From: a virus
Length of the DNA stretch: 64,000 nt
Strand: one strand, 5' to 3'
IMG/VR virus record: IMGVR_UViG_3300042450_002433
Coordinates: 83,570-147,569 of that record
The translations under genes were made by a program, and so were the position numbers. Positions within the stretch are counted from its first letter, which is position 1, and each line of letters opens with the position of its first letter. The notes below the pieces were generated by a model, which had not been told where the DNA came from, made no database searches, and worked only from the letters and a program-made list of their open reading frames with translations. Below are positions 19,067 to 38,317 of the stretch, one piece after another.

Positions 19067-20764
19067 ATGATCAAGTTTAAAAATATCCGTTGGAAGAACT
19101 TTCTCAGCACGGGAAACACCTTCACGGAAATGCAATTTGACAAAACAGAAACCACCCTTGTATTGGGTGAAAATGGGGCAGGTAAGAGTACTCTTTTAGA
19201 TGCTCTTACCTTTGTCCTATTTAATAAGCCTTATCGAAATATAAACCTACCACAACTAGTATCCTCGGTAAACGAAAAAGACTGTAGGGTAGAGGTAGAC
19301 TTCTCTGATGGCAAAGCAGAGTACAAGATCATTCGTGGGTTAGCACCCAAGGTATTTGAAATCCACAAAGATGGAAAATTGTTGGATCAGGATTCAAAAT
19401 CAAGAGACGGTCAGAAGATGCTTGAGGAATTGGTTCTTGGCATGAACTATAAATCGTTCTGTCAGGTAGTCATTCTTGGTTCTGCAAATTACATACCGTT
19501 CATGCGACTAACCGCTGCGGAACGAAGATCTGTTGTCGAAAGCATTCTAGATATTGGTGTTTTCTCTTCCATGAACACACACCTCAAAGAACGCATAAGC
19601 AACAACAAAGAAGAACTGCAACATTCAGAAACTGCTCTTGCGATTAAAAAAGAACGAGTGAATGTGCTTGTTCGAATGTCTGAAGAAGAAAAGCGAAGGA
19701 ACGAAGTTGATTCTGAATGGGAAGCAGAGCAGGTCGCTGCTGCCAACAAAACAATACTTGATGCAAAAACGGACATTAAGAATTCGTTGGCGGCTGTTCA
19801 GTCACACATGGACACCGTAACCGATAGCAATTCTATCAAAGAAAATTTCGAAAAATACACAAACATCAAATCACAAATTCAAAAGAAGATGACAACTCTT
19901 CGAAAAGAAATTGGATTTTATGAAACAAACGATCACTGTCCAACATGCACACAAAAAATTGATGAGCAATTCAAAACATCTGCTATTGCACGAGGAAATG
20001 CAAAATCAACAGATATGGAAAAAGCAATTGAAGATATTGCAAATGAGATCCTAACCTCACAAGAGCGAATTGAAGAAATTGGCAAGGTCATGGTATTGGT
20101 TCAGCAACACAATACAAACATTGTCAAAAAGACAAACGAAATTGAATCTACTGAGAAACACATCAAGACACTGACTACCAAGAAAACAGTCAAGACAGTT
20201 GATGTTGAAAAAGAACTCTCGGATGCAATGTCATTACAAGAAGAAGCAGCAGAGGAAAAGCGTGATCTGATTGAAGAGCAGCACTATCTTTCCCTTGCAG
20301 GAACACTTCTTAAGGATTCGGGAATCAAAAGCCGAATCATCAAAAACTATATCCCCATCATCAACGATACAATCAACAAGTATCTGACACAGATGAATTT
20401 CTTTGTCAACTTCAACTTAGACGAAGAGTTCAACGAAACCATCAAATCAAGACACCGAGACATATTCACCTATGCATCATTCAGCGAGGGTGAGAAGAAG
20501 AAGATTGATCTTGCTTTGCTTTTTGCATGGAGAGCGATTGCTTCAACAAAGAATTCAATCACAACCAATCTTCTCATACTAGATGAAATCCTCGATGGAA
20601 GTCTAGATGATCAGGCAACTGATGCCTTCCTCGACATTATGGCAAGCACAAAGACAGGTACAAATACCTTTGTGATTAGCCATAAGCCGAAGGAAGTGCT
20701 TCAGGACAAATTTGACAGATGCATACAGTTTGTCAAGCGCGGAAATTTCAGCCGAATATCGTAA
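19067..20764 (+). CDS. 46: Recombination endonuclease subunit gp46 (SbcC/Rad50-like)
   Basis: A 565-residue ABC-type ATPase that, with gp47, resects DNA ends for recombination-dependent replication. Walker A is GENGAGKS (34-41), the zinc hook CPTC is at 291-294 between two coiled-coil arms (about 170-290 and 300-410), the signature is SFSEGEKKK (471-479) and Walker B is LLILDE (502-507). Length matches T4 gp46. It is driven by a perfect sigma-70-type promoter. Its partner gp47 lies 3 kb away on the opposite strand, whereas in T4 the two are adjacent. Confidence 0.95.
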   Translation: MIKFKNIRWKNFLSTGNTFTEMQFDKTETTLVLGENGAGKSTLLDALTFVLFNKPYRNINLPQLVSSVNEKDCRVEVDFSDGKAEYKIIRGLAPKVFEIHKDGKLLDQDSKSRDGQKMLEELVLGMNYKSFCQVVILGSANYIPFMRLTAAERRSVVESILDIGVFSSMNTHLKERISNNKEELQHSETALAIKKERVNVLVRMSEEEKRRNEVDSEWEAEQVAAANKTILDAKTDIKNSLAAVQSHMDTVTDSNSIKENFEKYTNIKSQIQKKMTTLRKEIGFYETNDHCPTCTQKIDEQFKTSAIARGNAKSTDMEKAIEDIANEILTSQERIEEIGKVMVLVQQHNTNIVKKTNEIESTEKHIKTLTTKKTVKTVDVEKELSDAMSLQEEAAEEKRDLIEEQHYLSLAGTLLKDSGIKSRIIKNYIPIINDTINKYLTQMNFFVNFNLDEEFNETIKSRHRDIFTYASFSEGEKKKIDLALLFAWRAIASTKNSITTNLLILDEILDGSLDDQATDAFLDIMASTKTGTNTFVISHKPKEVLQDKFDRCIQFVKRGNFSRIS

Positions 20765-32534: not shown

Positions 32535-35258
32535 TTAGAGTGAAGGACACTCTTGAAATAGCAGAGCACGGAATGTAGGCTCTGTATTCCGATTTGAAGT
32601 CGGAGACAACATAATAGATTCGCCCCCGCCCCCACCACCGAGAACATTTGTGGTGGGGGCACTTATGTTGGTGGGGTTGTTTTGCTTGGTTGCATTATAT
32701 TGAGCAGTGGATGCATTTGTTGTTGCGGCATTAACTGCATTTGCATTGTATGATTGTGAAGACATATTAGCATACTGAACACCACCTCCTGCTTTTCCAA
32801 GGGGAGTGCTAGATGAACTGTTGTATGTGTTCTGTGTATTTGCTGCAATGTTTGTATTGCTTTGTGCCATGGAAGAAACTGCACTGTTTGTGTCTTCCAT
32901 AACCTTGTTTGTTTTTTCTGCTGCAACTGCAAGAGGAGATGCTGCGGGTGTGCCACCTCCCAATGCAGCCTTAATCGAACCACCAACAAGAGGAATCTCA
33001 CCAAGCGCATCGGCAATCGAATTGATAATATCTGTGAAAAAACTGACTAGTTTGTCATTAAGCCACTCACCAAAATTTGCAATATCTTCTAACCATTCTC
33101 CACTTGTAACCCAATTCCATAACCAAGTTACGGTTGAGGTAAGTGCATCCACAAGCATCTTGGGAAGATCGTAATAGAAAAATTTGATTACATAAAATGC
33201 TGCCTTAAGCAACAGTATGGGCAATCTAATAAATGTCATTATCAATTGTCCGATCAGATACTTTGCAATTGCAAAAAACATTTCATATATTGATTTTAGG
33301 ATTTTGGAGAACATCCCACCACCGCCTTGGAATATCGCCACAATATTACTAAAAGCATCAATGAAAGGTTTGATCAGTAGGTTATATCCTCCCATGATAT
33401 ATTCAGATATCGCATCGATAAGTCCTCCGATTGTGTCTCCGATTGTGTTATTTAAAAAGTCAAAGATGTCTTTGAAATCGAGCAGTCCAAAAGTCAGTCC
33501 GCTGATAATTTGAGACACTGCTCCGAGAATTGCTCCTTTAATATTCCCAAGTTCCTGAAACCCTTTATATGCACCATAGAGTGCATCAACAACGAGTTGA
33601 GCATAGAAGAAAAACTTCCCAAGAATTTTGAATCCAAACATGAATGCTTTTCCAAATAACCCAAGAGAACCTGCCGTTGCTGGAAAAATCTTAGAGAGTG
33701 CTGCAAATCCTTTTGTGAGGGGTGAAAGAAATTCCCCAATACCCGAAAACATTCGCATAATTCCCGAACCAATTCCCGAAAATACAACACCAAATGCCTT
33801 GCCAATTCCAAAAGGAATGAGTTTTATCAGGGATATGATAAACATAATCTTGGTAAAGAGATAACCAACTACCGCACCTATTCCCACAACCAAAACAAGA
33901 AGGATTTTTTTGAACATACCACTATCCTTATCAAACAGACCTCCAAGTTGATCTTTTAGATTTGCAATGCTATCAGTGAGCATCGATGCCCACTTAGGAG
34001 TTCCTGTATTGGCTTCTGCATCTCGTTCTGCCGCTGCAATATCTTCTGCCTTTGTGTGATTCAGTGTGGCGAGTTGAGTATCCGCAATACGATCCAGTCC
34101 ATCGACAACTTGAGTGCCTCGTTCCTTTGCCTCCTGACGCTCCTTAATCATTTCAGGATCTCTCGCGACCATGGTCGTTGCCATCTGTCTCGAAACATTT
34201 TTGTCAGCCATCTTCTTGAGAATCTGTTTTTCTTCGATTGAGGTCAGTTCTCTTTTTGTCTTGATTAACAGATTTTCACGAATCGTCTCTTTGCTTTTCA
34301 TTGCAAATTGCTTACGATATTCTTCTGTCTCTTGTGCAGTTGCCTCAGGATTCTTGATTGAATATAGTGCCATTTCTGCCGAAACAATAGCATCAAGTTC
34401 GCTTTTGATGTCTTTCAATCCCACAATACCGCCCGTGGCACTCAATGAATCTGAGAGTTTTGTTCCTTCTGTTTCTGCATTCTTTTTTGCAAGAATTTCG
34501 TTGAGTTTTTCTCTTTGAATAATCCCCGATTTGGCATCTTCGACTATTCGTTTTTTGGCATCTAATGTTCTTAGCAGTCCAATTTCGTTGTCTCTGATTT
34601 TTGCACTTTGCTGTATTTCAGTAAAGGTATCAGACACTCCTTGGAATGCCTTAGACATTTTGCCCATTTCAGGGCCAAGAACATCTGCCATATTACTAGC
34701 AGTATTAAGGATTGTGGTCTTGAGAGATTCTAATGATCGTTCAGTTTGTTTCCGCTGACTTCCTTCCAATATAGCAGCCTGTCGAACTTCGGACAGTTCT
34801 ACTCTTGCAGCATTTTGTTCTTTTGTTGCTTTTTCAATTTCTAGATTATAGAGTTTAAGATCTGCTTCATGCAGATCCATTGCTTCTCTTGCGCCGTCAA
34901 TAGACAATTTCCACTCACCTGCGGAATCTCTGAACTTCTTATTTTCAGTTGCAGATTTGCGTTCAAACTCTAATCTTTTATCTTCAGCAGCAAGAACTTT
35001 TTGCTTTTTTTCGCTATGCTTAGACTCGACTTGCTCAAGTTTCTTAAGCGTTGCTATGTATTTTTGAGAATCCTTTTCAACTGCATTTATGGTTGCTTGA
35101 AAATCTTCAAGTGCCTTTGCTGCCGCCTTTTCTTTTTCAGGATCGAATGTGGGTTTAAGAGACGGTGGTGGAGGAGGAGTTTGAATAGGAATAGCAATTC
35201 CATCTTGATTGATGGGTGGCGTTGGCTGTCCCGATTGATTTGTTGGTTCTCCTGCCAT
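32535..35258 (-). CDS. Tape measure protein (T4 gp29-like role)
   Basis: A 907-residue protein. The first 35 residues are Pro/Gln-rich. Residues about 40-440 are charged and helical, with long coiled coils. About 445-720 is strongly hydrophobic with several transmembrane-like segments (ILLVLVVGIGAVVGYLF, IKGAILGAVSQIISGL), and the end is low-complexity Asn/Ser/Thr/Gly. This layout is that of phage tape measures, which set tail length and enter the host membrane. It directly follows gp26 and the small frameshift ORF, as lambda gene H follows G and T. T4 gp29 is 590 residues, so this one is much larger. Confidence 0.75.
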   Translation of the reverse strand: MAGEPTNQSGQPTPPINQDGIAIPIQTPPPPPSLKPTFDPEKEKAAAKALEDFQATINAVEKDSQKYIATLKKLEQVESKHSEKKQKVLAAEDKRLEFERKSATENKKFRDSAGEWKLSIDGAREAMDLHEADLKLYNLEIEKATKEQNAARVELSEVRQAAILEGSQRKQTERSLESLKTTILNTASNMADVLGPEMGKMSKAFQGVSDTFTEIQQSAKIRDNEIGLLRTLDAKKRIVEDAKSGIIQREKLNEILAKKNAETEGTKLSDSLSATGGIVGLKDIKSELDAIVSAEMALYSIKNPEATAQETEEYRKQFAMKSKETIRENLLIKTKRELTSIEEKQILKKMADKNVSRQMATTMVARDPEMIKERQEAKERGTQVVDGLDRIADTQLATLNHTKAEDIAAAERDAEANTGTPKWASMLTDSIANLKDQLGGLFDKDSGMFKKILLVLVVGIGAVVGYLFTKIMFIISLIKLIPFGIGKAFGVVFSGIGSGIMRMFSGIGEFLSPLTKGFAALSKIFPATAGSLGLFGKAFMFGFKILGKFFFYAQLVVDALYGAYKGFQELGNIKGAILGAVSQIISGLTFGLLDFKDIFDFLNNTIGDTIGGLIDAISEYIMGGYNLLIKPFIDAFSNIVAIFQGGGGMFSKILKSIYEMFFAIAKYLIGQLIMTFIRLPILLLKAAFYVIKFFYYDLPKMLVDALTSTVTWLWNWVTSGEWLEDIANFGEWLNDKLVSFFTDIINSIADALGEIPLVGGSIKAALGGGTPAASPLAVAAEKTNKVMEDTNSAVSSMAQSNTNIAANTQNTYNSSSSTPLGKAGGGVQYANMSSQSYNANAVNAATTNASTAQYNATKQNNPTNISAPTTNVLGGGGGGESIMLSPTSNRNTEPTFRALLFQECPSL
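32537..32553. terminator. Hairpin between convergent gene 32 and tape measure gene
   Basis: AGAGTG-AAGGA-CACTCT forms a 6-bp stem in the junction where the two stop codons abut (32534 and 32535). No T tract follows on either strand; function tentative. Confidence 0.4.
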
Positions 35259-35270
35259 CTGACTTATCCT

Positions 35271-35432
35271 TTATCGTTCCTGACTCTTCATCGATTCCAT
35301 TCTCTCTTTTTCTTCCTTTAGATGCTGCATCAGCAGTTCGATATAAATCCTCCGTTCCCATGACATCATGCCTTCAAGGTCTTCAAGTGTGTAGTGAAAA
35401 TTCTGCATCATCGCAAAGTTAACCGAGAGCAT
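35271..35432 (-). CDS. Small ORF reached by -1 frameshift from gp26 (tail chaperone C-part)
   Basis: A 53-residue frame between gp26 and the tape measure: it begins MLSVNFAMMQNFHYTLEDLE, has the core MMSWERRIYIELLMQHL, and ends in a charged helix (KEEKERMESMKSQER). The pattern W-ER-Y-LL-HL-EE resembles C-terminal tape-measure chaperone domains. No Shine-Dalgarno sequence precedes the ATG at 35432. The frame is open further upstream to 35465, where the gp26 frame has a T TTT TTC heptamer, so a gp26 fusion of about 298 residues would result from -1 slippage. Its stop is 12 nt before the tape measure ATG. Confidence 0.65.
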   Translation of the reverse strand: MLSVNFAMMQNFHYTLEDLEGMMSWERRIYIELLMQHLKEEKERMESMKSQER

Positions 35433-35458
35433 ATTCAATAAATTGTCATGAGTGGAGG

Positions 35459-36166
35459 CTACGAGAAAAAACTTGTGATCCCCTTGAGTACTGTAGTATT
35501 TTCATGCCCACAACTCTTACATTTAAACTCAACTTTCTTTTCCAATTTGGGCATGGTTTCAATGAACTCAAAGAGCCGCTTGAATTGATCTTGTGTTAGT
35601 TCTTCCACAAAGTTGCGAACTTCTGCTTCGTCCATCTCAGCAGCATTATGAATGATTTCGCCCTGATACACCTTATCAATCGATTTGACCAATATTGTAA
35701 GTGCTCGTTCGACATCGGATTGTGTGGTAATATCTTGAAGATCGTCCATGGTTGGATATCGCATCTGTATGCTGATATCATCTACAACCGTAATTACTTT
35801 GGTATGCTTTGGATCTATGGTTGGTTTAATCTCCTTGAGATTGATTTCGCATTCATTCGGAATCTCGCATTTTGAACATTTAATGTTTGGTTTTGCGGTT
35901 TCTCCAACAGAATGACTTCTCAATTGGAGAAATAGGTATTCCATATCTGCAATCGGCAACTTGAATACATCAACAGTCCCACCCGTGCATGCCGAAATTA
36001 CTTCTCGAATTGCACTATTGATTGTTTTTTCGTCTTTGCTTTCTGATGCCATAAAGAGGATTTTTTCCTCTTTGACAATAAATGGACGATACTCAATCTT
36101 TTTGCCACTAACAGGCAAAGTTGTCTGATGTTTCGGTACTGATGCGAGAATTCCTGAAAGTGCCAT
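35459..36166 (-). CDS. 26: Baseplate hub / tail assembly protein gp26
   Basis: A 235-residue protein matching the T4 gp26 family of T4-like environmental phages. The N-terminal segment EYRPFIVKEEKILFMASESKD is typical. Two CxxC pairs, CSKC (about 112-115) and CKSC (about 221-224), suggest a zinc site. T4 gp26 acts in assembly of the central baseplate hub. The last codons AGT TTT TTC contain an in-frame -1 slippery heptamer just before the stop, so a longer form may be made. A good ribosome site precedes the ATG. Late virion-assembly operon with gp54. Confidence 0.8.
   Translation of the reverse strand: MALSGILASVPKHQTTLPVSGKKIEYRPFIVKEEKILFMASESKDEKTINSAIREVISACTGGTVDVFKLPIADMEYLFLQLRSHSVGETAKPNIKCSKCEIPNECEINLKEIKPTIDPKHTKVITVVDDISIQMRYPTMDDLQDITTQSDVERALTILVKSIDKVYQGEIIHNAAEMDEAEVRNFVEELTQDQFKRLFEFIETMPKLEKKVEFKCKSCGHENTTVLKGITSFFS
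35465..35471 (-). promoter_or_regulatory. Putative -1 ribosomal frameshift site T TTT TTC
   Basis: On the - strand the heptamer TTTTTTC lies in the gp26 frame as T|TTT|TTC, two codons before the stop TAG. Slippage by -1 leads into an open frame that joins the 53-residue ORF without an intervening stop. X XXY YYZ sites of this kind are used in lambda and many other phages between the two tail chaperone parts. Confidence 0.65.
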
Positions 36167-37229: not shown

Positions 37230-37820
37230 TCATGCGAGTGCCCATATATCGCTTCGGCTTGCGCCCTTGAATCTGTCTAAAGGGAAGAAAGGAACAGTCT
37301 TCCAATCATGAGGAGAGATGAATGAAACCTTTGATACGATATGTTTGTAATAATATCGCTTGATGCATGGTCGGTATGCCTTCATGATCGCTGACCCCTT
37401 AAGCATCCCATAGGTCACTCTGAACTCTACGCTTGTGTTATTGTGTGCTATCCAATTGGGGTCGGAGACATATTTAAGAAGATTGTTTAAAAAATTTGCC
37501 CTTCCTGACGGAGGTAGATAGTGCAAATTGAGACCAAGAAATCCATCTTTTTGAGGATGTAGGATGATGGTAATTGGAAATTCATCCCAAAACATGAGTT
37601 GATCTTTTGTTTTGGGGCTATATCCATAGAACACCATCTTGCCAGGAGTCAGACTTTTTCGAATAACTGTTTTTCCTGAATCTATGAAGTTTCTTTGATT
37701 CATGGTTGTTTTGATTTTGGATAGGTTTGTTGCCAACCAACGGGTTGTTCGGTCATCTCCAAGTTGAAGATTCGTTCCTTGCATCCCTTTTAGGACTTTT
37801 ACTACTTGTTGTTTTGTCAT
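37230..37820 (-). CDS. 2: Probable DNA end protector gp2
   Basis: A 196-residue protein coupled to the gp4 gene by ATGA. It shows the pattern KMVFYGYSPKTKDQLMFWDE followed by FPITIILHPQKDGFLGLNLHYLPP and a basic C-terminal half (KAYRPCIKRYYYKHI), which matches the gp2 proteins of T4-like environmental phages as remembered. In T4, gp2 protects the packaged DNA ends from RecBCD and is added at head completion with gp4. Shorter than T4 gp2 (about 274). The call depends partly on adjacency to gp4. Confidence 0.6.
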   Translation of the reverse strand: MTKQQVVKVLKGMQGTNLQLGDDRTTRWLATNLSKIKTTMNQRNFIDSGKTVIRKSLTPGKMVFYGYSPKTKDQLMFWDEFPITIILHPQKDGFLGLNLHYLPPSGRANFLNNLLKYVSDPNWIAHNNTSVEFRVTYGMLKGSAIMKAYRPCIKRYYYKHIVSKVSFISPHDWKTVPFFPLDRFKGASRSDIWALA

Positions 37821-38317
37821 TTTCCAGCCTTACCGAAGATGTTTTCTTCTGTTAGAATCCGAAATTTCCAACCGCGATCTGTGCAGTAGTCTTTTGCTGC
37901 TTCCCATTTTGCAGAGTTAATCAGCCAATTTCTAATCTCAAACAACTTGGATTTGGAGATTCGTTTTGATTTGGGTTGCTCGGGTTTTATTGTTTGTTTT
38001 TTGGGTTTAACCTCGATCAAACACTCCTCAATCCCGCCATCAGGCTTCTTAAGACACATCCAAAAGTCCACAAAGTAACGGTGTTTGCGCCCATCGACAG
38101 GCGAAATATACGGGACAACCACTTCTTCCGAAGACCATTTAGTAACAGAGTCGTTTTCATCGCAAAAAACCATTACGCGCCTTTCCCACAATGATCGGTA
38201 AAAGCACATCGAGGGATCTCCCTTATACTTTTCGGGTCGTTTTGGTGTGTATCTTCCCTTGTATGATTTGTTGTTTGCGATGAGGGTTCTCCCGTATATT
38301 CTATTTATCAAAGACAT
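37817..38317 (-). CDS. 4: Head completion protein gp4
   Basis: A 166-residue protein with the gp4 core: YRSLWERRVMVFCDEN, then VTKWSSEEVVVPYISPVDGR, KHRYFVDFWMCLK and CLIEVKPKKQ. The residues E (WER), D (FVDFW) and ExK (LIEVKPK) follow a TnsA-like PD-(D/E)XK layout. T4 gp4 (also called 50/65) completes DNA-filled heads before tail joining. The start is 13 nt from the divergent gp48 start. Confidence 0.85.
   Translation of the reverse strand: MSLINRIYGRTLIANNKSYKGRYTPKRPEKYKGDPSMCFYRSLWERRVMVFCDENDSVTKWSSEEVVVPYISPVDGRKHRYFVDFWMCLKKPDGGIEECLIEVKPKKQTIKPEQPKSKRISKSKLFEIRNWLINSAKWEAAKDYCTDRGWKFRILTEENIFGKAGK

Follow-up and report, generated by a model that had tools for sequence, protein, structure and literature searches.

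It is very probable, judging from sequence comparison, that the gp26 homologue of this uncultivated T4-like virus is the short form of a tail assembly chaperone and that a −1 slip at the heptamer T TTT TTC, near the end of its gene, yields a long form of 298 residues. The anatomy of the locus, its conservation, the phase-specific codon constraint and the homology of the extension were observed directly, in the window (the whole 64,000-nucleotide stretch of DNA that was analysed) and in the loci compared with it.

The proposed slip site and the neighbouring genes

The gp26 gene lies on the minus strand at positions 35459 to 36166 and encodes 235 amino acids, which would constitute the short chaperone form (TAC-N). 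Direct reading of its 3' end (35473 to 35459) gives AGT TTT TTC TCG TAG, in which AGT occupies 35473 to 35471 and the TAG stop 35461 to 35459; the heptamer (35465 to 35471, minus strand) stands in X XXY YYZ phase, one sense codon ahead of that stop. Counted from the heptamer, the −1 frame has 66 sense codons before it reaches a stop at 35273 to 35271. This gp51- or T-like C-terminal part (TAC-C; 35271 to 35471, minus strand) encloses a 53-residue ORF (35432 to 35271, minus strand) with an ATG at 35432, and a gap of 12 nt separates its stop from the start of the following gene at 35258. An earlier note on this DNA had placed an in-frame heptamer before the TAG and a −1 frame running on into the small ORF; the heptamer proved exact to the base, all the coordinates were correct, and the conceptual fusion of gp26 with the −1 extension, put there at about 298 residues, has a computed length of 298.

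The gp26 protein matches the Pfam family T4_baseplate (PF12322, E = 4.2e-60) and the baseplate hub family phrog_150 (E = 7.9e-61), and its AlphaFold model (pLDDT 88.6, pTM 0.83) matches gp26-family models in BFVD and, more weakly, a gp51 model. Foldseek comparison of the model with the PDB returned no significant solved structure, HK97 gp13 (2ob9) lying among the noise (E = 2.7, TM 0.20/0.35); a profile search of solved structures gave no meaningful match, and a search of NCBIfam gave no useful one.

The following gene (32535 to 35258, minus strand; 907 amino acids) has its own Shine-Dalgarno (SD) site. It had been called the tape measure gene in the earlier note, from which the 12-nt spacing stands; the identity is only probable, as judged from the position of the gene, its hydrophobic central region and a tblastn comparison that linked it weakly to two proteins annotated as tape measure (E = 2e-4 and 4e-4), and family searches gave no match. 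Elsewhere in the window, the homologue of the head-closure protein gp4 (37817 to 38317, minus strand) matches not only phrog_218 (E = 3e-56) but also PF08722, a TnsA-like endonuclease domain (E = 7e-24).

The frequency of such features by chance was surveyed in the 86 ORFs of at least 100 amino acids in the window. The −1 frame stays open for at least 50 codons beyond the stop in 23 of the 86, so that an open frame by itself is not rare and has little meaning. An XXXYYY slippery site within the last 12 codons occurs in only 5 of these ORFs, and the combination of a heptamer with 30 or more open codons in the −1 frame in 2, gp26 and a gp46-like gene. This gp46/SbcC-like gene (19067 to 20764, plus strand; phrog_77, E = 2e-156) carries the heptamer A AAT TTC in frame close to its end, and beyond its stop the −1 frame continues for 46 codons, which is probably due to chance or to ordinary overlap with the next gene. 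Given the chance figures for the window, the case rests on the relatives, and conservation decides it.

Conservation of the site and identity of the −1 extension

A gp26 scan of viral contigs yielded 72 loci with 30 to 100% identity, to which the window and five reference phages (S-PM2, P-RSM6, phiN3, Melnitz-1 and pf16) were added. Loci were taken as testable if the end of gp26 was readable, truncated loci being excluded; the resulting 74 were reduced to 37 representatives below 90% identity, reaching approximately 30% protein identity. The earlier note had proposed aligning relatives for a slippery heptamer and an open −1 frame, and both were present at every one of the 74 testable loci, the heptamer always as NNT TTT TTY (TTT/TTC) with an unchanged phase and close to the gp26 stop; from the use of Phe and NNY codons elsewhere in these genes, NNT TTT at the Phe pair would be expected at approximately 35% per gene. 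Cyanophages, Sinorhizobium phage phiN3, Melnitz-1 and pf16 are all among the phages that keep the heptamer, and the −1 frame in the relatives is open for 61 to 78 codons, barring two loci cut by a contig end. Synechococcus phage S-BM3, whose gp26 is 38.7% identical, has both the slippery site and the open −1 frame; its extension (L086:2206-2390) falls between gp26 and the following gene, an interval for which no gene is annotated. Among more distant phages, TTTTTTC is kept by Aeromonas phage 65, Stenotrophomonas phage Moby and Vibrio phage D490, and Vibrio D506 and Ackermannvirus Ds23CZ have just the weaker CTT TTC or ATT TTC. Of the outlying phages compared, T4 and Acinetobacter DLP3 have no heptamer at the end of gp26. 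A shift into the +1 frame was dismissed, since almost all relatives have a stop in that frame approximately 13 nt past the end of gp26.

Within the near clade, variable columns upstream of the slip fall mostly on gp26 third positions (94/60/38), and those downstream fall mostly on −1-frame third positions (19/5/40 in the small ORF); the gap from the gp26 stop to the first ATG, a short stretch with 10 variable columns, gives 3/1/6. This distribution supports a −1-frame coding constraint that begins at the slip site and not at a start codon.

The earlier note had also suggested a profile search of the small ORF, and it led to gp51: read from the slip, the −1 peptide of 66 residues matches the gp51 family phrog_634 ('baseplate hub assembly catalyst') with E = 8e-18, and the match is poorer (E = 5.9e-16) if the peptide is read from its first start codon only. 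The same peptide matches the last 52 positions of phrog_150, the gp26 family (E = 9e-4), so some phrog_150 sequences evidently contain the extension. A profile built from conceptual fusions gave an alignment of 229 columns with T4/Acinetobacter gp51 (E = 4.4e-13), in which gp26 takes up the N-terminal side and the −1 peptide the C-terminal side; the −1 part alone matched the C-terminus of T4/Acinetobacter gp51 (E = 1.2e-5, and 0.47 in a column-shuffled control), and T4 gp26 matched only the N part of the fusion profile (E = 2.9e-19). Since the fusion is collinear with nearly all of T4 gp51, T4 has the long form as a gene of its own, read without a shift. Heptamer phase, coding constraint, gp51 homology and the absence of an SD at the small ORF all support the assignment, made at the outset, of gp26 as the G-like and the small ORF as the T-like part.

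Probable mode of expression of the −1 frame

That the small ORF is instead an ordinary separate gene 51, with its own start and coupled to the termination of gp26, seems very improbable to us. The records of S-PM2, P-RSM6, phiN3, Melnitz-1 and D490 do annotate gp26 and gp51 as two CDSs, and Moby (L079), Ds23CZ (L081) and Vibrio D490 (L082) have a −1-frame TGATG/TAATG overlap at the gp26 end, so that a coupled restart may occur there besides the slip. Against such a gene, the first −1-frame start in the window comes 11 codons beyond the slip and, as had been claimed for the small ORF, has no ribosome site of its own: SD pairing is absent at TTG 35438 and at ATG 35432 (duplex energy +0.7 kcal/mol, compared with −7.3 for gp26 and −5.4 kcal/mol for the following gene). 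Pairing is weak across 36 representatives as well, with a mean SD energy of −0.4 kcal/mol at the first −1-frame start versus −5.0 at gp26. In these representatives the first start varies from 3 to 34 codons past the slip, whereas conservation of the peptide starts at the slip itself; so scattered a start is ill suited to an independent gene conserved from the slip onward. Furthermore, a separate gene would leave unexplained both the conserved phase of the heptamer and the single-ORF fusion in T4. Reading the locus as a slip corrects an annotation fault, in that the −1 part has been recorded as a separate 'gp51' or, in S-BM3, left unlisted, and consequently the long chaperone form is missing from the records.

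Still less probable is a transcriptional frame change, with RNA polymerase slipping at the T run and adding frame-shifted copies to the mRNA: the run is a homopolymer, and two relatives (L066 and L067) have longer ones, but it comprises merely 6 T in the window and mostly 6 to 7 in the relatives, which is short for polymerase slippage, the constant placement of NNT TTT TTY is needed by tandem tRNA slippage and not by the polymerase, and an SD-like element is kept upstream of the heptamer.

With a −1 slip of the ribosome as the preferred reading, the majority of ribosomes would terminate at the TAG and release the 235-residue TAC-N; in a minority, the tRNAs on TTT TTC would slip one base back onto TTT TTT and translation would continue to 35271, giving the long form (TAC-NC), whose last 60-odd residues would be the gp51 C-terminal domain. 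If the proteins act as lambda G/GT do, the short form would coat the tape measure protein, the tail part of the long form would recruit tail-tube subunits, and both forms would depart before the tail is completed. The slipping itself, its rate and the chaperone role in this phage are inferred.

The SD-like element, AAGGGG (35480 to 35485, minus strand), lies 8 nt ahead of the heptamer and is a putative frameshift stimulator, which probably makes slips more frequent. At this position GAGGG, GAGGA or a similar sequence occurs in most relatives. Anti-SD pairing at the element averages −6.8 kcal/mol versus −4.95 kcal/mol in synonymous shuffles, with a z of about −8.4 over 37 representatives that are mutually related and hence not independent. 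Where the codon specifies Glu, it is GAG in 19 of 22 cases, and still in 9 of 11 under a 60% identity cut, compared with 25% elsewhere for Glu codons that precede Gly; in the window and the relatives nearest to it this codon specifies Lys or Arg, not Glu, and some lineages, e.g., L034 and L046, have no excess of anti-SD pairing. Codon choice and pairing energy indicate that the element is kept beyond amino-acid need. In E. coli dnaX, frameshifting is stimulated by an internal Shine-Dalgarno-like element.

Downstream of the slip, RNAalifold predicted zero pairs on 13 relatives, and the fold energies in the window were no better than those of shuffles (z of about +0.4 to +1.2); averaged over the family, z is −0.9 to −1.7, so downstream structures may be present in some lineages. 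We consider the chances about even that T4-like sites use mainly an upstream SD-like stimulator (8 to 10 nt ahead), kept across marine T4-like phages, and not a downstream hairpin or pseudoknot. The locus offers a test case for this stimulator, which is the least familiar part of the finding. Separately, in L066 and L067 the T run of the slip site is longer (8 to 9 T), the SD-like element is absent and an ATG stands three codons past the slip; these two might use a different mode.

Comparison with known chaperone systems

The abstract of the 2022 paper by Vladimirov, Gautam and Davidson reportedly describes frameshifting as conserved in several T4-like groups and names T4 genes 26 and 51. The frameshift arrangement is not new, since it was published that year for T4-like phages (Virology 566:9-15, on the tail assembly chaperones of genes 26/51); the window is a further member of that family and adds an uncultivated T4-like group to the keepers of the frameshift. 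The published systems have the same gene pair before a presumed tape measure gene and, according to PMC12846349, a poly-T site at the end of TAC-N; the virus described here differs only in being uncultivated and in having a gp26 at most about 39% identical to those of reference phages. Two papers citing that work describe poly-T frameshift signals in the TAC-N genes of some T4-like groups (PMC12846349) and T4-like phages in which the short and the long form have a gene each (PMC10885494). The earlier note had placed the arrangement outside the classical T4 description, which is true of T4, whose gene 26 is without the heptamer, but not of T4-like phages, for which the frameshift had already been published.

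In relation to T4 itself, gp26 of the window aligns with T4 gp26 and the fusion matches T4 gp51 over almost its whole length; unlike in the window, genes 26 and 51 of T4 are separate and oppositely oriented. T4 gene 51 is plainly the unshifted equivalent of the fusion, in agreement with the 2022 paper. The tail chaperone locus of phage Adele (Vandenendeviridae/Andersonviridae), which belongs to a different phage family, has a −1 frameshift in common with the window; there, the shift is conserved, all genomes having a GTTTTT motif and an open −1 frame (PMC12846349).

The lambda G/GT mechanism has been reviewed (PMC5009743), and T4 was still given as an exception in 2016. Compared with solved chaperones of the lambda type, gp26 has no detectable sequence match and no significant fold match. 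The slippery heptamer differs from that of lambda gpG/gpGT, and the downstream domain here has just approximately 60 residues; as in lambda, however, the proposed −1 slip is placed near the end of the short gene, the tape measure gene (here the probable one) lies downstream, and a short and a long form would be made (PMC5009743).
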